In this document: positions 5,335 to 38,093 of the stretch, piece by piece
How positions within the stretch are numbered: the first letter of the stretch is position 1
How the letters are laid out: each line of letters begins with the position of its first letter
Assembly: GCF_024055715.1 (NCBI RefSeq)
Contig: NZ_JAMXMV010000040.1
Location: forward strand, 1-38,093
DNA length: 38,093 nt
Reading direction: 5' to 3'
DNA from: Actinoallomurus soli
GTDB lineage: Bacteria > Actinomycetota > Actinomycetes > Streptosporangiales > Streptosporangiaceae
Program-made: the position numbers and the translations under genes
Notes under the pieces: model-generated
Databases searched by the model: none
Seen by the model: only the letters and a program-made list of their open reading frames with translations
What the model was told of the DNA's origin: nothing

Positions 5335-6309
5335 CTACTGGGGCGAGCCGCTGGGAGCGGGTGCCGTGGCGACCGGCCCGGGAGCCCCGGCCTTCGTCCA
5401 GCCCTGCGCGAGGAAGCCGAACGCGTCGGGGAGGACGCTGCGCACGTAGTCCCAGTCGTGGCCGCCGGGACGTTCCTCCAGGACGGCCGGCACGCCGGCC
5501 GCGTCGAGCAGCTTCTTGAACCGCTCCGGCTCGCCCTTGATGACGTCGTTCTCCTCGCTCTCGGCGGCCGACAGGAAGATGCGCACGCGGCGCGCGGCCT
5601 CGACGTTGTGGTCCGGCCGGTTGGCGTCGATGACGGCGTCCTGGTCGCCGAACATGTGGGACGGGTCGTCGACGTGGAAGTAACCGGAGATGGACGTCAC
5701 CGCGCCGAAGACGCCGGGGTGGCGCAGCGCGAGGTTCATCGACCCGTAGCCGCCCATGGAGAAGCCGCCGATCGCCCGGTGCGCGGCGTCACGCCGGTGC
5801 CGGCCCTCGACGGCGGGGATCACCTCGTCGAGCAGCCGGTCCTCGACGCGGTCGGACCCGTCGGCGGCGTTCGCCCACTCGGTGTCGTCGTGATGGCTGC
5901 CGTTCCCGTCCGGCACCGCCAGCACGAACGGCGTGCCGCCCTTGGCGACGTACGACGCGACCTGCTTGGCGAGCCCCTCGTCGTCGATGAGCGTCTTCGG
6001 GTCGCTCGGCACGCCGTGCAGGAAGTACAGCACCGGCAGTTTCCGCGTCTCCGGCACGTCGGGGCGCCACACGTACACCCCGTACGCCTTGTGGTCGACC
6101 GGGTCGGTCACCTGAATGCGGGTGAGGCCCGGCCGCGCGGGAGACGGCGTGTCGGTGTCCTGCGGCCGGCGGGTGGCGGCCGAGCCGTGGTGCAGGCCGA
6201 GGTTGACGATCACGTACGCGAGGCCGAGCGCCGCCACGAGCGTTCCCGCCCACGCGGAAAGGCCCGCCAGCGGCGGGCGTCGAGTCTTCTTCCTGCGATG
6301 TTTCGCCAC
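5335..6309 (-). CDS. Membrane-anchored alpha/beta-hydrolase esterase
   Basis: 324-aa protein of the esterase D / mycolyltransferase-like alpha/beta hydrolase group. A basic N-terminus (KHRRKKTRR) is followed by one transmembrane helix at about 17-38, so the enzyme probably sits outside the cell tethered to the membrane. A Pro/Thr/Ser linker leads to the hydrolase domain (from about residue 62). The nucleophile elbow is GGFSMGGYGS and the catalytic His is in PGGHDWDYVRSVLPDAF; an oxyanion-hole segment YFLHG is also visible. The C-terminus is Pro/Ala/Ser-rich. GTG at 6309 is the only start that keeps the positive end of the anchor. The substrate is unknown (a wall lipid or a xenobiotic ester are possibilities). 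Confidence 0.85.
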   Translation of the reverse strand: MAKHRRKKTRRPPLAGLSAWAGTLVAALGLAYVIVNLGLHHGSAATRRPQDTDTPSPARPGLTRIQVTDPVDHKAYGVYVWRPDVPETRKLPVLYFLHGVPSDPKTLIDDEGLAKQVASYVAKGGTPFVLAVPDGNGSHHDDTEWANAADGSDRVEDRLLDEVIPAVEGRHRRDAAHRAIGGFSMGGYGSMNLALRHPGVFGAVTSISGYFHVDDPSHMFGDQDAVIDANRPDHNVEAARRVRIFLSAAESEENDVIKGEPERFKKLLDAAGVPAVLEERPGGHDWDYVRSVLPDAFGFLAQGWTKAGAPGPVATAPAPSGSPQ

Positions 6310-27266: not shown

Positions 27267-27497
27267 CACACGCCGTCGCGTGGACCCGCCTCACACGCCA
27301 TCGCGCCGACCCCCACACGCGTCATCGCGGAAGCCGGTTTCCGCACTTCTCGCGCGGGCCGACCGCCCACGTCGTCGCGCCGACCGGCCTCACACGCCGT
27401 CGCGCCGACCGGCCGCACGCGCCGTCGCGGGGCCGGGCTCACACGTCGTGCGCGGATTGGCCTCGCCGTCGCGGGGCCGGGCTCACACGTCGTCGCG
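27267..27497. repeat. Eight-copy degenerate minisatellite
   Basis: Variants of CACACGCCGTCGCG followed by CCGACCGGCC-like sequence start at about 27267, 27292, 27314, 27367, 27391, 27415, 27440 and 27484, mostly 22-26 bp apart. They fill the 315-bp space between the exonuclease and the RecB-like gene. The last copy runs over the stop codon and encodes the final residues (DDV) of the RecB-like protein. Confidence 0.75.
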
Positions 27498-28382
27498 GGG
27501 ATCCCGCGGCGACACCTCTTCCCGCGGCAGTCCCGGCCCGCCGGCCACGGCCGGCAGCGGTGGCGGCTCTCCGCCGAACGACGGGCAGCGCTCCTGGTGA
27601 TCGCACCAGTCGCACAGCCGGCTCTTGCGCGGCCGCCACTCGCCGGAGTCCATCGCCCGGCGGATCGCCTGCCACAGCGCGTCGACCTTGCGCTCGGTCG
27701 CGCGCAGGTCGGCCTCGTCGGGGGAGTAGCGCAGCACCTCGCCGTTGCCGAGGTACATCAGCTGCAGCAGCCGGGGCACCGTGCCGCGCAGCCGCCACAG
27801 CACCAGCGCGTAGAACTTCATCTGGAAGAGCGCCCGCGCCTCGAAGTCGGCCCTCGGCGCCTTGCCCGTCTTGTAGTCCACCACCCGGACCTCACCGGTC
27901 GGGGCGACGTCCAGCCGGTCGATGTAGCCGCGCAGCTGCAACCCCGAGTCCAGGACCGTCTCGACGTACAGCTCACGGCTCGCCGGCTCCAGCCGGCGCG
28001 GATCCTCCAGCACGAAGTAACGCTCGACCATCGCCCGCGCCTCGGCCAGCCACTCGGCGCGCGCCGTCTCGACGTCCTCGCCGTCGAACAGGTCCGCGAG
28101 CTCCGGCTCCTCGGTCAGCAGCCGGTCCCACTCGGGCCCCAGCAGCTCCAGCGCCGTCGCCGGCGTTCGCCGCGCCGCCGGGATGTCGAACAACCGCTCC
28201 AGCACCGCGTGCACGAGCGTGCCGCGCACGGCCGCCGGACTCGGCCGCTCGGGGATCCGGTCGATCACCCGGAAGCGGTACAGCAACGGGCACGTCATGA
28301 AATCGCCCGCCCGCGACGGGGACAACGTGCCGATCACTCGGGCGCCGTCCGGGGACGTCGCGCCGGTCTCGATGGCCGTCAT
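27483..28382 (-). CDS. RecB-family exonuclease (PD-(D/E)XK) with iron-sulfur cysteines
   Basis: 299 aa; homologous in context to Rv2119. Nuclease motifs are GTLVHAVLERLF, LRGYIDRLDV (metal Asp), VRVVDYKTGKAPR (Asp and Lys) and FQMKFYALVLWRL. Four cysteines are placed as in AddB/Cas4-type iron-sulfur nucleases: Cys31 (MTCPLLYRFR) and Cys257, Cys260, Cys266 (CDWCDHQERC). A 4Fe-4S cluster staple is therefore expected. It is a free-standing nuclease domain without helicase, probably for DNA repair. ATG at 28382 lies exactly 7 nt after TAGGGT. It is divergent from the M50 protease across a 440-bp repeat-filled spacer. Confidence 0.9.
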   Translation of the reverse strand: MTAIETGATSPDGARVIGTLSPSRAGDFMTCPLLYRFRVIDRIPERPSPAAVRGTLVHAVLERLFDIPAARRTPATALELLGPEWDRLLTEEPELADLFDGEDVETARAEWLAEARAMVERYFVLEDPRRLEPASRELYVETVLDSGLQLRGYIDRLDVAPTGEVRVVDYKTGKAPRADFEARALFQMKFYALVLWRLRGTVPRLLQLMYLGNGEVLRYSPDEADLRATERKVDALWQAIRRAMDSGEWRPRKSRLCDWCDHQERCPSFGGEPPPLPAVAGGPGLPREEVSPRDPRDDV

Positions 28383-30895: not shown

Positions 30896-31096
30896 CGAGA
30901 ATCTCTCCGCTCGGCACGACCCCCTCCGGACGCCAGGACTTGCGCCGTCAAGGCCGTGAAGCGATCTTTTTCTCGACGGCCGGGGGGTTCCGCCGAAGGT
31001 CCTCCGTCCCGGGGACCTGCCACTTCATCCTGAACATGGTTCCCACGCCACGACACGAGTACCCATGGGCCAGGTTACGGAGGCGCTCAGGATAGG

Positions 31097-31102
31097 TAGG
31101 GT
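31097..31102 (+). promoter_or_regulatory. Possible -10 box TAGGGT of arc/mpa
   Basis: TAGGGT with a weak TTACGG 16 nt upstream (31075-31080) would give a leader of about 34 nt to the GTG. The 247-bp gap after trmI holds nothing else I can name. Confidence 0.3.
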
Positions 31103-31142
31103 TTCAGGTAGGTCGTCGTCTCTGCCTGAGGAGGTGACGAGC

Positions 31143-32906
31143 GTGGCCGCTCGTGACGATGCCGGGGCGCGTAAGGCGCAGCACGAAAAGGAGGTCCGCG
31201 ACCTCCAGACGCAGGTCTCCTTCCTGGAGGAGGAGATCTCCGTGCTGCGCCGCAAGCTCGCGGAGTCCCCCCGACAAGTTCGTGTACTCGAAGAGCGCCT
31301 TCACGAGGCGCAGGCAAGTCTGGCCGCGGTTACGGGCCAGAACGAACGTCTCGTGGCGACTCTCAAGGAAGCCCGAGAGCAGATCATCGCCCTCAAGGAG
31401 GAGGTCGACCGGCTCGCACAGCCACCGTCGGCCTTCGGAACGTTCCTCGCCGCGCGCGAGGACGGCACGGTCGACATCTTCACCGGTGGCCGCAAGCTGC
31501 GGGTGAACGTCAGTCCGGGCATCGAGATCGACGAGTTGCAGCGTGGCCAGGAGGTCATGCTCAACGAGGCGCTCAACGTCGTCGCCGCTCTCGAGTTCGA
31601 GACGCAGGGCGAGGTCGTGATGCTGAAGGAGGCCTTCGAAGACGGCGAACGCGCCCTCGTGATCGCCCACGCCGACGAAGAACGCGTCGTCAAGCTGGCC
31701 GAGCCCCTGCGCGGGATCGCCCTGCGCGCCGGCGACTCGCTCATGCTGGACACCCGATCCGGATACGCCTACGAGAAGATCCACAAGGCGGAGGTCGAGG
31801 AGCTCGTCCTCGAAGAGGTCCCCGACATCTCCTACCAGGAGATCGGCGGCCTCGGCCCGCAGATCGAGCAGATCCGCGACGCCGTCGAGCTGCCCTACCT
31901 CCACGCCGACCTGTTCCGCGAGCACCAGCTCCGTCCTCCGAAGGGCGTCCTGCTGTACGGCCCGCCCGGCTGCGGCAAGACCCTCATCGCCAAGGCGGTC
32001 GCCAACTCGCTCGCCAAGCAGGTCGCCGAGAAGACCGGTGCCGAGGGGAAGAGCTTCTTCCTCAACATCAAGGGCCCCGAGCTCCTCAACAAGTACGTCG
32101 GCGAGACCGAGCGGCACATTCGCCTGGTCTTCCAGCGGGCCCGCGAGAAGGCCTCCGCGGGTACCCCCGTGATCGTGTTCTTCGACGAGATGGACTCCAT
32201 CTTCCGCACCCGCGGATCCGGTGTCTCATCCGACGTCGAGAACACCATCGTCCCCCAGCTGCTGTCGGAGATCGACGGCGTCGAGGGCCTGGAGAACGTC
32301 ATCGTCATCGGTGCCTCCAACCGGGAGGACATGATCGACCCGGCGATCCTCCGCCCCGGCCGGCTCGACGTGAAGATCAAGATCGAGCGTCCGGACGCCG
32401 AGGCCGCCAAGGACATCTTCTCCAAGTACATCCTCACGGACCTGCCGCTCCACCCCGACGACCTGAAGGAGCACGGCGGCTCTCCGGAGGCCACCGTCGA
32501 CGCGATGATCCAGCGCGTCGTCGAGCGGATGTACAGCGAGACCGAGGAGAACCGCTTCCTGGAGGTCACCTACGCCAACGGCGACAAGGAGGTCCTGTAC
32601 TTCAAGGACTTCAACTCCGGCGCGATGATCCAGAACATCGTCGACCGGGCCAAGAAGATGGCCATCAAGGACTTCCTCGACAGCGGGCAAAAGGGCATGA
32701 GGGTGACCCACCTTCTCGCGGCCTGCGTCGATGAGTTCAGCGAGAACGAGGACCTGCCCAACACCACCAACCCCGACGACTGGGCCCGCATCTCCGGCAA
32801 GAAGGGCGAGCGGATCGTCTACATCCGCACGCTCGTCTCCGGCAAGCAGGGCACCGAGGCCGGGCGCTCGATCGACACCGTCGCGAACACCGGGCAGTAC
32901 CTCTGA
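31143..32906 (+). CDS. arc: Proteasome-associated ATPase ARC/Mpa
   Basis: 587 aa; hexameric AAA ring that captures pupylated proteins, unfolds them and feeds them into the 20S core. An N-terminal coiled coil (about 15-95: [26 protein letters not shown]...) binds Pup. Two OB domains (about 96-240) follow, then the AAA module. Walker A is GPPGCGKT at 273-280, Walker [11 protein letters not shown] with Asp348-Glu349, sensor 1 [12 protein letters not shown], and the arginine finger region [11 protein letters not shown]. The C-terminus is ...ANTGQYL, the Gln-Tyr-x motif that docks into the alpha ring. I chose GTG at 31143 because GAGGAGG precedes it at proper distance; GTG at 31134 would overlap that site. 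A strong terminator follows, so arc and dop are separate transcripts. Confidence 0.97.
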
Positions 32907-33205: not shown

Positions 33206-34720
33206 ATGAGCGTGCGGCGGGTGATGGGGATCGAGACCGAGTACGGCATTTCCGTGCCCGGTCAGCCAGGGGCCAACGCGATGGTGACCTCCTCGCAGGT
33301 CGTCAATGCGTACCTCGCGGCGTCGGCGGCGAAGGCCAGGCGGGCGCGGTGGGACTTCGAAGAGGAGAACCCACTGCGCGACGCCCGCGGCTTCGACCTG
33401 GCCCGTGAGGTCGCCGACCCCACACAGCTGACCGACGAGGACCTCGGCCTGGCCAACGTCATCCTGACCAACGGGGCCCGCCTCTACGTCGACCACGCGC
33501 ACCCGGAGTACTCCACGCCCGAGTGCACCAACCCCCGGGACGCCGTCATCTGGGACAAGGCCGGAGAGCGCGTCATGGCCGACGCCGCCGCCCGCGCCGC
33601 CCGGGTGCCGGGCACCCACCCGATCCAGCTGTACAAGAACAACACCGACAACAAGGGCGCCTCCTACGGCTGCCACGAGAACTACCTGATGCGCCGGGAG
33701 ACCCCGTTCTCCGACATCGTCCGGCACCTCACGCCGTTCTTCGTCACCCGGCAGGTGGTCTGCGGCGCCGGCCGCGTCGGCATCGGCGTGGACGGCCGCG
33801 GCGACGGCTTCCAGATCAGCCAGCGGGCCGACTTCTTCGAGGTCGAGGTGGGCCTCGAGACCACCCTCAAGCGCCCCATCATCAACACCCGTGACGAGCC
33901 GCACGCCGACCCGGAGAAGTACCGCCGGCTGCACGTCATCATCGGCGACGCGAACATGAGCGAGGTCTCGACCTACCTCAAGCTCGGCACGACCGGCCTG
34001 GTCCTCGCCATGATCGAGGACGGCTTCCTCACCGTCGACCTGTCGGTCGACATGCCGGTCGCCACCCTGCGGGCGATCTCCCACGACCCCAGCTGCAAGC
34101 ACCTGCTCACCCTGCGCGACGGCCGCAAGATGACCGCCGTGCAGCTCCAGATGGAGTACCTCGAGCAGTCCCGCAAGTACGTCGAGGACCGGTTCGGCGG
34201 CGACGCCGACGACCTGACCAGGGACGTCCTCGACCGCTGGGAGTCGGTCCTGCAGCGGCTCGGTGACGACCCGATGCAGCTGTCGCGCGAGCTCGACTGG
34301 GTCGCCAAGCTGGAGCTGCTCGAGGGCTACCGCACCCGCGACGGGCTCGACTGGTCCCACCCGCGGCTGCAGCTCGTCGACCTGCAGTACTCCGACGTCC
34401 GGCCCGACCGCGGTCTGTACAACCGGCTCGCCGCGCGCGGGCGCATGGAGCGGGTCGTCAGCGACGCCGAGATCGTGGCGGCGATCGAGGACCCGCCCGA
34501 GGACACCCGCGCCTACTTCCGCGGCCGGTGCCTGCGCCAGTACGCCGACTCCGTCGCGGCGGCGTCCTGGGACTCGGTGATCTTCGACGTGCCGGGTCGC
34601 GAGTCGCTGCAGCGGGTGCCCACCCTGGAGCCGCTGCGCGGCACCAGGGCGCACGTGGGCGCCCTCCTGGACCGCTGCCGCACCGCCTCCGACCTCGTCT
34701 CGGCCCTGACCGGCGAGTGA
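33206..34720 (+). CDS. dop: Pup deamidase/depupylase Dop
   Basis: 504 aa of the carboxylate-amine ligase (glutamine synthetase-like) fold. It deamidates the C-terminal Gln of Pup to Glu and removes Pup from tagged proteins. [10 protein letters not shown] at 7-16 contains the metal and ATP glutamates. Downstream are [41 protein letters not shown] and [19 protein letters not shown]. The Dop-specific insertion (about 38-80, [30 protein letters not shown]) follows the first strand and separates it from PafA. Ends in [12 protein letters not shown]. Its product acts on the Pup encoded 233 bp downstream, which ends in GGQ and so needs it. PafA is not in the window and would be expected beyond prcA. 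Confidence 0.97.
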
Positions 34721-34917
34721 CCCGCACGCCCGCTCGTACGCCCTCCTCGGCCCGCGTACGGGCGGCCGTGGAGACCGGTGCCGCTGTGATCGCTGCACAG
34801 TTGTGACGGGTATGACCGTTTCGCGGAGATGGCGACCGGCGATAACGGCGTCAGGAGACCAACCGCCGATCGGCGTGGCGCACGCTCAGTGATCCACTCC
34901 GCGTCGGTGGTCGGCGA

Positions 34918-34923
34918 TAGAGT
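34918..34923 (+). promoter_or_regulatory. -10 box TAGAGT of pup
   Basis: TAGAGT lies 30 nt before the pup ATG, giving a leader of about 23 nt with GGGAGG. This suggests that pup and the genes after it have a promoter separate from dop. Confidence 0.45.
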
Positions 34924-34953: not shown

Positions 34954-35163
34954 ATGGCAACGAGGGACACCGGCGGTCAGCGGCAGACGACCCGGCGCGA
35001 GGACGAGGTCGACGAGACCCAGACCGCGCCCAGCGAGGACGTCCAGGAGCGCCAGGAGAAGCTCACCGACGACGTCGACGCAATCCTGGACGAAATCGAC
35101 GAGGTCCTCGAAGAGAACGCCGAGGAATTTGTCCGTAGTTACGTGCAAAAAGGCGGCCAGTGA
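34954..35163 (+). CDS. pup: Prokaryotic ubiquitin-like protein Pup
   Basis: 69 aa. Disordered charged N-terminus, then a helix-forming acidic segment that binds the Mpa coiled coil ([40 protein letters not shown]). The C-terminus is Gly-Gly-Gln, the precursor form that Dop must deamidate before PafA ligates it to target lysines. Lys66 is near the end as usual. GGGAGG lies 6 nt before the ATG. The stop overlaps the GTG of the next gene (GTGA), so the two are translationally coupled. The last 40 bases turn AT-richer (AATTTGTCCGTAGTTACGTGCAAAAA region), as does the start of the following gene. Confidence 0.97.
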   Translation: MATRDTGGQRQTTRREDEVDETQTAPSEDVQERQEKLTDDVDAILDEIDEVLEENAEEFVRSYVQKGGQ

Positions 35164-36380
35164 GGGATATGTCCGGTTTAATCCCTCTGAGCAAACGGTG
35201 CAAAGACTGCGGAGAGGTCAAACCGGCGGCAGATTTCTGGCGCCGGAAGCAGTCGCCCGACGGCCTGGCTCTGTACTGTAAGGAGTGCTTCGGCCTTCGC
35301 AACGCCGCCGCTTATCGGAAAAGGCGGGCGGCGGAAGGAAAGTCGGCGCGCGACTACCGTCGGCATTCCGCCGTTCCGGATGGCATGAAGTACTGCGCCG
35401 TGTGCAAAGAGATCAAACCGATCTCCGAATTCGGCCGTAATCGGGCGGAGCCCTCGGGGCTGGCTTCTTATTGCCGTCGCTGCCATAACAAGGCGATGGC
35501 CGAGATCAAGGCCAAGAAGCACGGCAGTACGCGGAGCTACCACCTCCAGCGTCGGTATGGGATGACCGAGTGCGAAGTCGATGAGCTCGCCCAGAGGCAT
35601 GGGGATCTCTGCCTGATCTGCCTGCACCGGCGCTCATTGCACGTTGACCACGACCATGCCACCGGAGAGGTCCGGGGGATGCTCTGTTTCAGCTGCAACG
35701 GCGCGCTCGGCCAGTTCAAGGATGACGCCATCGTCATGCGTCGGGCCGTCGACTATCTCGAAGGCAGGCTGGTCGAGCCCGTGCGGCCGCGACGGGCGGC
35801 GCGCCGCTCGAGAGGCGCCGCGAAAAGCCGCCGCCATTACCGGCTGATGCAGAAGTATGGGATCGGCGCGGATGAGGTCGAGCGGCTGATCGAGAGCCAG
35901 GGCGGCATCTGTCCGATCTGCCGGACGGCGGAGCCGGCGCACGTCGACCACGACCACGTCACCGGGGCCGTGCGGGGGGTCCTGTGCGGCGACTGCAACA
36001 CGGGGATGGGGCAACTGCGGGACGATCCCTGGCTCGTCCGCCGGGCGATCGAGTATCTGACGGGTGGGCTGTCGGGGATCCGGCTGACCGGGGACGGCGG
36101 TTTCGAGGTGGCCGTCGTACGCCCGCGGCGGTCCGAGGAGGTCGTCGATCCGGGATGGCTCCTGGCGCGAGCCTGCATGGACGACCTGGCGCTCCTGCAC
36201 GCGATGGCGGAGGGGCACTCGGAGGATCCCTGGGAGACGGATGTGTCCGTGGTGGGGCCGGGGCCGTCGGAGGAGCGGTTTCCCGCACTCGATCTGAGCG
36301 ACCCGGGGTCTCCGGATCGCGGCGCGTTGCCGCGGGAGCCGCTGGGGCCGCCGGAGTGGGCCTTGACGGCCGCTGACTGA
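35160..36380 (+). CDS. Double endonuclease VII (His-Me finger) protein in the proteasome operon
   Basis: 406 aa. Two zinc knuckles come first: Cys14/17/40/43 and Cys79/82/105/108, each with the pattern CxxC-x(2)-KP-x(2)-(D/E)F...GL..YC..C. Then two recombination-endonuclease-VII domains follow, about 133-203 and 232-303. Each has CxxC (151/154; 251/254), the catalytic HVDHDHxTGxVRGxLC block (161-176; 261-276) and the final CxxCN (176-180; 276-280). The corresponding residues are exactly 100 apart. A 100-residue acidic/Pro tail closes the protein. T4 endonuclease VII is a dimeric Holliday-junction resolvase with these metal and catalytic residues, so this may be a covalent pseudo-dimer (inference). 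Start GTG overlaps the pup stop with AAAAAGG 6 nt upstream; ATG at 35169 is the alternative. The first 400 bases are visibly poorer in G+C than neighbours. Confidence 0.88.
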
Positions 36381-36432: not shown

Positions 36433-36455
36433 TGACGTCACAGTGACAGTAGGGT
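36433..36455 (+). promoter_or_regulatory. Candidate promoter/operator of prcBA
   Basis: Palindrome TGACGTCA (36433-36440) overlaps GTCAC-A-GTGAC (36437-36447), directly followed by -10-like TAGGGT (36450-36455). A start near 36462 would leave a leader of about 40 nt with GGAAGGAG. Confidence 0.4.
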
Positions 36456-36502: not shown

Positions 36503-37351
36503 GTGACGTCGCAAGGTTCCGCGCCGGGGCGTCTACCGGGCGCGTTCATGAGCCAGGGCCCCCCGTCGTTCACCGAGTTCCTCTCGTCGTACTCGCCGGG
36601 ACTGCTGCCCGGGTCGCGCGAGCTTCCGGCCGGGGTGTCGGCCGGGGACAAGATCCCGCACGGCACGACGATCGTCGCGATCACGTTCCCGGGTGGTGTG
36701 GTGATGGCGGGCGACCGGCGGGCCACCGCGGGCAACGTGATCGCCCAGCGGGACATCGAGAAGGTCTACCGCGCCGACGAGTACTCCGCCGTCGCGATCG
36801 CGGGCACCGCGGGCATCGGCCTGGAGGTGGTGCGCCTGTTCCAGGTGGAGCTGGAGCACTACGAGAAGATGGAGGGCCGTACGCTCTCGCTGGAGGGCAA
36901 GGCCAACCGGCTCGCCACAATGGTGCGCGGCAACCTGGGCATGGCCCTGCAGGGTCTCGTGGTCGTGCCGCTGTTCGCCGGTTACGACGAGGACGAGGAC
37001 CGCGGCCGGATCTTCAGCTACGACCCGGCCGGCGGGCGGTACGAGGAGCAGGACTTCTACAGCATCGGCTCGGGGTCGGTGTTCGCGAAGGGTGCGCTGA
37101 AGAAGCTGTTCCGGCCGGAGCTGTCCGAGGAGGACGCGGTCGTCGCCTCGATCCAGGCCCTCTACGATGCGGCGGACGACGACTCGGCCACCGGCGGCCC
37201 GGACCTGACCCGCCGGATCTTCCCGGTGGTCGCCGCGGTCACGGCCGACGGGTACCGGCGGTTGCCGGACGAGGAGGTCGGGGGTCTGACGGAGCGGGTC
37301 GTCGAGGGACGGATGCGCTCGCCGGGCGGGCCGTCGGCTCCGCTGCTGTAA
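36503..37351 (+). CDS. prcB: Proteasome beta subunit PrcB
   Basis: 282 aa; catalytic subunit of the 20S core. A propeptide of 54 residues ends in KIPHG and is removed by autocleavage to free the nucleophile Thr55 ([21 protein letters not shown]). The Asp (Asp71 region, AGDRRAT) and the Lys in [10 protein letters not shown] complete the active site. [15 protein letters not shown] is the conserved Ser-Gly-Ser block. GTG at 36503 with GGAAGGAG 4 nt upstream; a shorter start at Met16 (36548) would still leave a 39-residue propeptide. It lies 122 bp after the endonuclease VII gene and 45 bp before prcA. Confidence 0.97.
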
Positions 37352-37396: not shown

Positions 37397-38093
37397 GTGT
37401 CCATGCCGTTCTACGTGTCGCCCGAACAGCAGATGAAGGACAAGGCCGACTACGCGCGTAAGGGCATCGCGCGCGGCCGCAGCGTCGTCGTGCTGCAGTA
37501 CGACGACGGCATCCTGTTCGTGGCGGACAATCCGTCCCGCGCGCTGCACAAGATCAGCGAGATTTACGACCGGATGGCGTTCGCCGCGGTCGGCAAGTAC
37601 AACGAGTTCGAGAACCTCCGCCAGGCGGGCGTGCGCTACGCCGACGTCAACGGGTACATGTACGACCGCCGTGACGTCACCGCGCGGGGTCTGGCGAACG
37701 CCTACGCGACGACGCTGGGCACGGTGTTCACCGAGATGAACAAGCCGTACGAGGTGGAGCTCGTCGTCGCGGAGCTGGGCGAGGACGCCGCCTCGGACCA
37801 GATCTACCGGCTGACGTTCGACGGGTCGGTCGCCGATGAGCACGGTTACGTCGCGATGGGCGGTCAGGCCGACCAGGTCGCGGCGGCGCTGCAGGAGCAC
37901 TACGAGGAAGGGCTGCCGCTGGCGCGTGCGCTGCGGCTCGGCGTACGGGCGCTGGAACGGCAGGACGCCGACCGGCATCTGGAGGCCGAGCAGCTGGAGG
38001 TCGCGGTGCTCGACCGGAACCGGACGCACCGGTTGTTCCGCCGGCTGCCGCCGGCGCGCATCCGGACGCTGCTGGAGGAGGCCGGCACGGGGA
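37397..38093 (+). CDS. prcA: Proteasome alpha subunit PrcA (5' part, runs off the window)
   Basis: At least 232 aa; non-catalytic subunit forming the outer rings and gate of the 20S core. It starts [71 protein letters not shown], the alpha-type opening with the gating N-terminus and the H0 helix. [23 protein letters not shown] and the G-rich [11 protein letters not shown] follow. The GTG at 37397 is preferred to ATG at 37403 because AAGGAA lies 8 nt upstream of it. No stop is reached before 38093, so the C-terminus (usually a short acidic or Pro-rich tail) is missing. Confidence 0.96.

Follow-up and report, generated by a model that had tools for sequence, protein, structure and literature searches.

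Why does a nuclease gene of phage type lie between pup and prcB, within the locus that encodes the actinobacterial Pup-proteasome system (PPS)? The question is raised by a contig of Actinoallomurus soli (NCBI RefSeq assembly GCF_024055715.1, contig NZ_JAMXMV010000040.1, positions 1 to 38,093 of the forward strand; this whole stretch of 38,093 nucleotides is termed the window), in which pup is followed directly by a gene for a 406-residue protein with two recombination endonuclease VII domains. Our best reading is that a phage-type, structure-selective nuclease has been adopted as a recurrent accessory of the PPS operon. As to its function, the best single explanation is an accessory nuclease for DNA repair within the pup operon, with a probability of roughly 0.4. 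What is shown is the position of the gene, which recurs across many actinobacterial lineages, and the retention of its core residues.

Domain organization and conservation of the tandem nuclease

The following features of the window define the nuclease and its junction with pup.

34954..35163, + strand: pup, with a C-terminal GGQ (PF05639, 9.9e-30; TIGR03687, 9.1e-21)
35160..36380, + strand: tandem endonuclease VII protein, 406 residues (PF02945 twice; whole-protein E 2.7e-44, 149 bits)
35199..35288, + strand: zinc knuckle 1, residues 14-43 (C14/C17 and C40/C43)
35394..35483, + strand: zinc knuckle 2, residues 79-108 (C79/C82 and C105/C108)
35541..35762, + strand: endonuclease VII domain a (PF02945, 80.8 bits)
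35841..36062, + strand: endonuclease VII domain b (PF02945, 86.3 bits)
36066..36377, + strand: C-terminal tail of the nuclease, its final 48 residues modeled with low confidence by AlphaFold

A preliminary description of the window, made from its letters alone, had proposed two CxxC knuckles and two complete endonuclease VII domains at 100-residue spacing, in a frame whose start overlaps the pup stop. Both points are borne out. The motifs CxxC, HVDHDH and CxxCN begin at residues 151, 161 and 176 and again at residues 251, 261 and 276, exactly 100 residues apart, and the GTG start at 35160 overlaps the pup stop TGA (35161-35163) by 4 nt. Domains a and b share 37 of 79 positions (47% identity), and both score far above the curated PF02945 cut-off of 23.6 bits. 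They are also the only PF02945 matches at E 0.001 in the source genome (98% complete), so the double match is not a product of chance. The protein thus holds two full copies of the zinc cysteines and of the HxDHxH...CN catalytic set.

Residue conservation was assessed by aligning the window protein with 109 of the 178 relatives listed by protein searches. All 14 core positions across the two centers are kept in 108 of the 109 rows that have letters there, so that the loss of catalytic residues across the family, which would have told against the preliminary description, is not seen. In domain a, the four cysteines, D163, H164, H166 and N180 are kept in 110/110 rows and H161 in 102/110; in domain b, the four cysteines, D263, H266 and N280 are kept in 109/109 rows and H264 in 108/109. 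The knuckles are similarly preserved: no cysteine of knuckle 1 is lost in more than one of the 82 rows that cover it, and those of knuckle 2 are kept in 104/104, 103/104, 105/107 and 107/107 rows. Both nuclease centers therefore retain their core residues, catalytic and zinc-binding, in all but one of the rows that cover them.

The best solved relative by sequence is Hpy99I (PDB 3fc3, 5.3e-7), to which knuckle 2 and domain a align jointly, and the window protein belongs to the fold shared by T4 endonuclease VII and Hpy99I. The AlphaFold model contains two well-formed domains, with values of the predicted local distance difference test below 50 at residues 359-406. From these similarities we infer an active endonuclease that binds zinc and selects its substrates by structure, of the same kind as phage endonuclease VII and Hpy99I. 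The presence of two domains per chain is suggestive of dimer-like action, in which both active sites would work on the same DNA.

The protein nevertheless differs from each of its known counterparts. T4 endonuclease VII (gp49; PDB 1en7, 1e7d, 2qnf) has a single domain per chain, is encoded by a phage instead of a chromosomal operon, and lacks the two additional zinc knuckles; furthermore, its Glu after CNAA is replaced by Met or Leu in the window protein, with Leu also found in Hpy99I. Hpy99I likewise differs in its number of nuclease domains per chain, and no methylase lies beside the window nuclease among the open reading frames (ORFs) scanned, which were part of the total. Phage endonuclease VII proteins (PHROG 2633 and others) share the unit of knuckle plus nuclease (1.8e-73), and relatives occur in 1729 of 50,697 phage records; none of these 1729 covers 80% of the window protein, all are less than 60% identical to it, and the best-covering ones listed are 31-44% identical. 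The closest protein overall, at 92% identity, comes from Actinoallomurus rhizosphaericola.

Linkage to pup and prcB across actinobacterial genomes

Whole genomes were searched for PF02945 and Pup, and the positions of the matches were compared in four overlapping surveys. A match was considered linked if it lay on the same contig and strand as pup, anywhere from an overlap of up to 250 nt to 1.5 kb downstream. In the phylum sample, at least 33 of 51 PF02945 matches are linked, in at least 25 of 396 genomes (G001, for which no pup place appears among the matches listed, was entered as unlinked). In the order sample, 29 of 51 matches are linked, in 16 of 121 genomes. Two family samples gave 26 of 50 matches in 26 of 81 genomes (the family of G204, whose Dop is 99% identical to that of Micromonospora) and 36 of 69 matches in 36 of 81 genomes (the family of G023, assigned to the Streptomycetaceae on the basis of a Dop 93% identical to that of Actinacidiphila). 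Pooled, the surveys yield at least 90 distinct genomes with a linked copy. For matches of at least 60 bits, the ratios of linked to unlinked are 27/5 in the phylum sample (among the matches listed), 28/3 in the order sample, 19/11 in the G204 family and 24/2 in the G023 family. Since pup is present in all 121 genomes of the order and a linked nuclease in only 16, the nuclease is an accessory, not a core, member of the PPS locus.

The genes around linked copies were examined in 39 fetched loci, comprising every linked phylum or order genome except the source itself; these loci were selected for linkage, and several of their copies are partial. They contain arc in 29, dop in 37, prcB (downstream of the domain) in 38 and prcA in 38 cases. 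Absences mostly reflect stretches that end or start too close to the locus, with the exception of L136, in which no prcB lies within 2.1 kb. Additionally, named genomes were scanned with an alignment of 14 pup-linked proteins, and the best 80 of 561 relatives were kept. All 80 carry the domain less than 1.5 kb after pup, and 79 have prcB downstream; as these 80 were picked by likeness to pup-linked queries, the figures indicate consistency and not an unbiased rate. Their hosts include Micromonospora, genera of the Actinoplanes group, Catellatospora, Geodermatophilus, Modestobacter, Klenkia, Frankia, Streptacidiphilus, Actinacidiphila, Actinomadura, Nonomuraea and an Acidimicrobiia assembly. 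The link with pup and prcB put forward in the preliminary description is accordingly well supported by position.

A 4-nt overlap of the nuclease start with the pup stop is available in 18 of 115 measurable loci, where the start codon nearest to the pup stop, at or downstream of it, was assumed and need not be the true one; 5 of 120 loci have no such start. At least 5 of the 80 named loci lie on the same contigs as fetched survey loci, and the overlap count includes such pairs. At the other end of the gene, a GTG start of prcB lies 48 nt inside the nuclease 3' end, in another frame, in all eight Streptomycetaceae-like loci with separate frames that were inspected (L121-L123, L127, L128, L138, L141 and L144) and in L157. 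Because of these pup-stop overlaps and internal prcB starts, the nuclease is interlocked with the operon at its 5' or its 3' end, depending on the lineage. Its position between the two genes is fixed, and in many lineages it overlaps its neighbors or is set off from them by short spacers.

PF02945 proteins among the unlinked survey matches are scattered, whereas the subfamily nearest the window protein occupies one slot. Scattered sites of the kind left by a homing or mobile HNH endonuclease are not seen for this subfamily. In order genomes without the nuclease, 20 further regions downstream of pup contain no nuclease remnants; shorter pup loci outside the linked set gave two weak nuclease matches, L104 (2e-7) and L105 (6e-4).

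The interval between pup and prcB varies in some lineages. The nuclease and prcB are 1 to 3.6 kb apart in certain Actinomadura/Nonomuraea-type loci. In four of these, L148 (IMS domains), L153, L154 and L155 (4.1-5.3 kb as oriented), the gap contains an oppositely oriented gene for a Y-family DNA polymerase; L255 has such an opposite-strand gene but no nuclease. In four order genomes that lack the nuclease (L252, L253, L261 and L268), pup and prcB are about 2.8 to 7 kb apart.

Single-domain, two-gene and fused forms

The best 80 of the 561 relatives comprise 71 single-domain proteins, four pairs of adjacent one-domain ORFs and five fused tandems, so that single- and double-domain forms both exist. 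Fused tandems were found in Actinomadura/Nonomuraea-type genomes and in Frankia nepalensis, and separate ORFs in other lineages. A domain tree was built from 89 domains and 82 columns, after 72 of 161 domains had been dropped at 82% identity or more and linked domains below 55 bits had been excluded; many of its forks remain open. One fork (86/91) separates 72 of the 73 pup-linked rows, together with one phage row (L246), from 15 of 16 phage, plasmid and unlinked rows, which are joined by one linked row (L133). A single clade of all pup-linked rows is not rejected (p value of the approximately unbiased test, p-AU, 0.41).

One clade (99/90) unites the second domains of the Actinomadura/Nonomuraea-type tandems with a single-domain row. 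In the two-gene forms, first ORFs mostly fall apart from second ORFs on the tree, and the Frankia tandem lies elsewhere, its placement being open. As the fused tandems of two lineages and the two-ORF forms separate in this way, domain doubling probably arose more than once. Domain b of the window protein clusters with the first ORFs of two-gene forms (99/88), to which it is 61% identical, and not with domain a; with only 47% identity between a and b, a recent duplication in place is not supported for the window domains. The coexistence of single and double forms and the apparently repeated doubling fit the dimer that the preliminary description had envisaged within one chain.

The exceptional nuclease of L133 (genome G274) lies in the pup-prcB slot; its loop is longer and resembles that of phage proteins, and on the tree it clusters with phage rows. 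It may represent an independent capture in the same slot, although the p-AU above does not reject a single linked clade.

Selection, inheritance and decay

The nuclease is under purifying selection in Micromonospora. In 18 chosen loci, the median ratio of nonsynonymous to synonymous substitution rates is 0.245 for the nuclease, 0.084 for pup, 0.089 for prcB and 0.096 for dop. Inheritance was assessed from distance correlations, for which the 79 loci with all genes, out of 87 single-domain loci, were thinned by identity to 30. Nuclease distances correlate with those of Dop (0.35), PrcB (0.47) and Pup (0.47), and none of 2000 permutations reached values as high. The nuclease thus appears to have been passed on largely together with the locus, allowing for noise or exchange.

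The preliminary description had also noted a lower G+C content in the 5' part of the nuclease gene and taken it as a sign of acquisition by the operon. The difference itself stands (0.608, against 0.718 in the linker and second domain). Acquisition does not follow from it, because pup has a similar value (0.638), the linkage is widespread and nuclease distances loosely track those of Dop, PrcB and Pup; G+C was likewise discarded as a mark of recent acquisition.

Among linked genomes, only a match below 60 bits was found in 12 of 36 genomes of the G023 family and 7 of 26 of the G204 family. Decayed Streptomycetaceae-like copies still keep the stretch that holds the internal prcB start. The tail VAPGVYQLPS of Streptomycetaceae-like copies was considered as a functional C-terminus or proteasome-docking motif and rejected, since a prcB start lies 48 nt inside the gene in another frame and decayed copies keep this stretch. 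In L140 (genome G042), a 62-residue frame at 5813-6001 (- strand) has an ATG overlapping the pup stop and consists half of knuckle and half of nuclease end; it looks like an in-frame remnant of the nuclease.

A putative DNA damage promoter upstream of pup

RecA-NDp, the DNA damage promoter of PafBC, is given as tTGTCRgtg-8 nt-TannnT in PMC5656591, and the PafBC promoter consensus as TGTCGG-10N-TA-3N-T in PMC8151990. A corresponding site precedes pup in the window.

34901..34923, + strand: RecA-NDp/PafBC-like promoter, GCGTCGGTG-N8-TAGAGT, its 3' end 30 nt ahead of the pup ATG

The stretch 34902-34923 matches the RecA-NDp pattern with one mismatch in 11 fixed positions. At up to one mismatch, TGTCGGTG-8N-TANNNT finds 114 sites in the genome, the pup site included, as against 20 for the reversed control. 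An equally good site lies 66 nt ahead of the ATG of recA, an established PafBC target, in the same genome. Between 34700 and 36600, no sigma-70-type promoters were found, and two terminator-like sites, both within the nuclease gene, compare with 0.7 in shuffles.

The core also recurs upstream of pup in other genomes. With up to one mismatch, it is present at -45 to -70 in 42 of 156 pup upstream regions (mononucleotide shuffles: mean 0.4, maximum 2). Because these regions include near-identical ones, a thinned set of 124 was also analyzed, in which 30 carry the core (shuffles: mean 0.3, maximum 3). The strict core occurs in 9 of the 156 regions (shuffles: mean 0.07, maximum 2; reverse complement: 0). 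The frequency of the core within one mismatch is similar with the nuclease (32/115) and without it (10/41). We therefore assign the promoter to pup; the nuclease would make use of it as well.

Six exact RecA-NDp-like sites of the source genome were inspected (L271-L276); by eye, some of the downstream ORFs resemble an acetyltransferase and a pentapeptide-repeat protein.

A possible role in DNA repair and its alternatives

Links between the bacterial proteasome and DNA damage have been described mainly in mycobacteria. According to published work, pupylated RecA, RuvA and Nei2 connect the two (PMC8223512, PMC11323726), the PPS brings PafBC-induced RecA back to its pre-stress level after damage in M. 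smegmatis (PMC8223512), and Nei2, a repair enzyme under PafBC control, becomes pupylated upon exposure to mitomycin C (PMC11323726). An accessory repair nuclease would fit into this setting as follows. DNA damage would lead PafBC to turn on the pup-nuclease transcript, and reinitiation at the pup stop would produce the nuclease alongside Pup. Domains a and b would pair within one chain, in the manner of the two T4 subunits, and cleave branched, mismatched or cross-linked DNA in the course of repair. The nuclease may then be removed by pupylation and the proteasome, by analogy with RecA in M. smegmatis. The predicted substrate is thus branched DNA, the inducer mitomycin C and the fate pupylation.

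Several observations weigh against a repair function. The nuclease is patchily distributed (at least 25/396 genomes of the phylum sample and 16/121 of the order sample), and its tandem form is in the minority, with a single domain in 71 of the best 80 named loci. H261, the first His of the domain b HVDHDH motif, is kept in only 67 of 109 rows. Constraint in Micromonospora is weaker on the nuclease (0.245) than on pup, prcB and dop (0.08-0.10), and its correlation with Dop (0.35) is far below that between Dop and PrcB (0.82). Several low-scoring Streptomycetaceae-like copies have decayed to partial or broken frames, and the nuclease is therefore dispensable there. The promoter is about as frequent upstream of pup without the nuclease as with it, several exact RecA-NDp-like sites precede genes with no obvious repair role, and ruvC has no RecA-NDp site within one mismatch in 3 kb on either side. 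In addition, deletion of dop caused no cross-linker sensitivity in M. smegmatis, as reported in PMC11323726. A replacement of RuvC by the nuclease is not supported, since RuvC is present in the source genome.

Some of these observations would suit other explanations. The gene could be a passenger: an old insertion of a phage-derived endonuclease VII gene at the pup-prcB junction that leaves the operon undisturbed, is tolerated for that reason and is now being lost. We regard this as rather unlikely: decayed copies and the abundance of relatives in phage records (1729/50,697) agree with it, yet the cores of both centers are intact in 108 of 109 tandem rows, the gene is under purifying selection in Micromonospora, its domain doubling is repeated, and the same slot holds a more phage-like copy in L133 (fork 86/91, with one linked clade not rejected at p-AU 0.41). 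Patchy presence, decay and fast evolution are usual for defense genes. All three apply to this nuclease, which could accordingly attack branched or concatemeric phage and plasmid DNA, its place in the operon providing proteasomal control, with Pup keeping a toxic enzyme low until infection. The window protein also matches a PADLOC type II restriction enzyme model (7.6e-17), and its best solved relative is the restriction enzyme Hpy99I. Such a role is nonetheless improbable, as the gene keeps one operonic slot across many families instead of shifting between islands, and neither a methylase nor another defense gene was found among the part of the window ORFs that was scanned. Least likely is an adaptor or regulator, in which the knuckles and endonuclease VII domains would contact DNA or PPS proteins to direct pupylation or the expression of the operon, with cleavage secondary.

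A nuclease with its catalytic residues intact in the operons of Micromonospora, Actinomadura, Frankia, Geodermatophilus and Streptomycetaceae offers a genetic handle on the tie between proteasome and DNA damage, and the one-gene, two-gene and fused forms are natural variants of what is perhaps a single dimeric nuclease. A bolder proposal, which we hold only tentatively and think doubtful, is that of a nucleic-acid arm of pupylation: a dedicated junction nuclease, in one chain or from two genes, that is expressed from the transcript of pup, controlled by PafBC and with its lifetime set by Pup. If true, the junction nuclease would open branched or cross-linked DNA, the lifetimes of site-bound proteins would perhaps also be set by Pup, and the system would parallel, in bacteria, the DNA-repair nucleases that ubiquitin controls.

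Relation to published work

The literature was searched as open-licence full texts, with figures and most subscription papers outside its scope. Within it, nothing was found on recombination endonuclease VII with the proteasome, and no text combines endonuclease VII, pup, the proteasome and actinobacteria. The combination of endonuclease VII with pupylation returned only the Nei2 paper, in which 'endonuclease VII' does not occur as whole words; it is also absent from the looser matches listed. No mention was found of SCO1645, which we take to be the Streptomyces coelicolor gene of the pup-prcB slot. The word 'endonuclease' is absent from the main text of PMC2588565, PMC3511204, PMC8223512, PMC12288473 and PMC6017811, and the locus section of PMC3511204 places pup directly upstream of prcB. 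An older figure may show an unnamed ORF between the two genes. Domain family and locus are thus both known, and their combination appears undescribed in the texts searched.

Gene neighborhood of the window

The remaining genes of the locus are as follows.

31065..32906, + strand: arc/mpa, proteasome ATPase (TIGR03689, E 3e-254)
33206..34720, + strand: dop, depupylase/deamidase (TIGR03688, E 3.3e-238)
36503..37351, + strand: prcB (PF00227, 2.4e-42), its start picked from the starts of relatives; the longest ORF begins at 36443
37397..38092, + strand: prcA (PF00227, 6.5e-17), its frame open where the contig stops (38093)

The order arc, dop, pup, nuclease, prcB, prcA identifies a PPS locus of the actinobacterial type (arc, dop, pup, prcBA, pafA, pafBC) with the nuclease added. 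The upstream neighbor of pup is dop and not pafA; pafA and pafBC are outside the view and would lie past the contig end at 38093. Upstream of arc, a PD-(D/E)XK nuclease gene is present at 27483-28382 on the - strand (PF12705, 2.3e-40), and genes for an M50 peptidase and a TrmI-like methyltransferase are located between it and arc.
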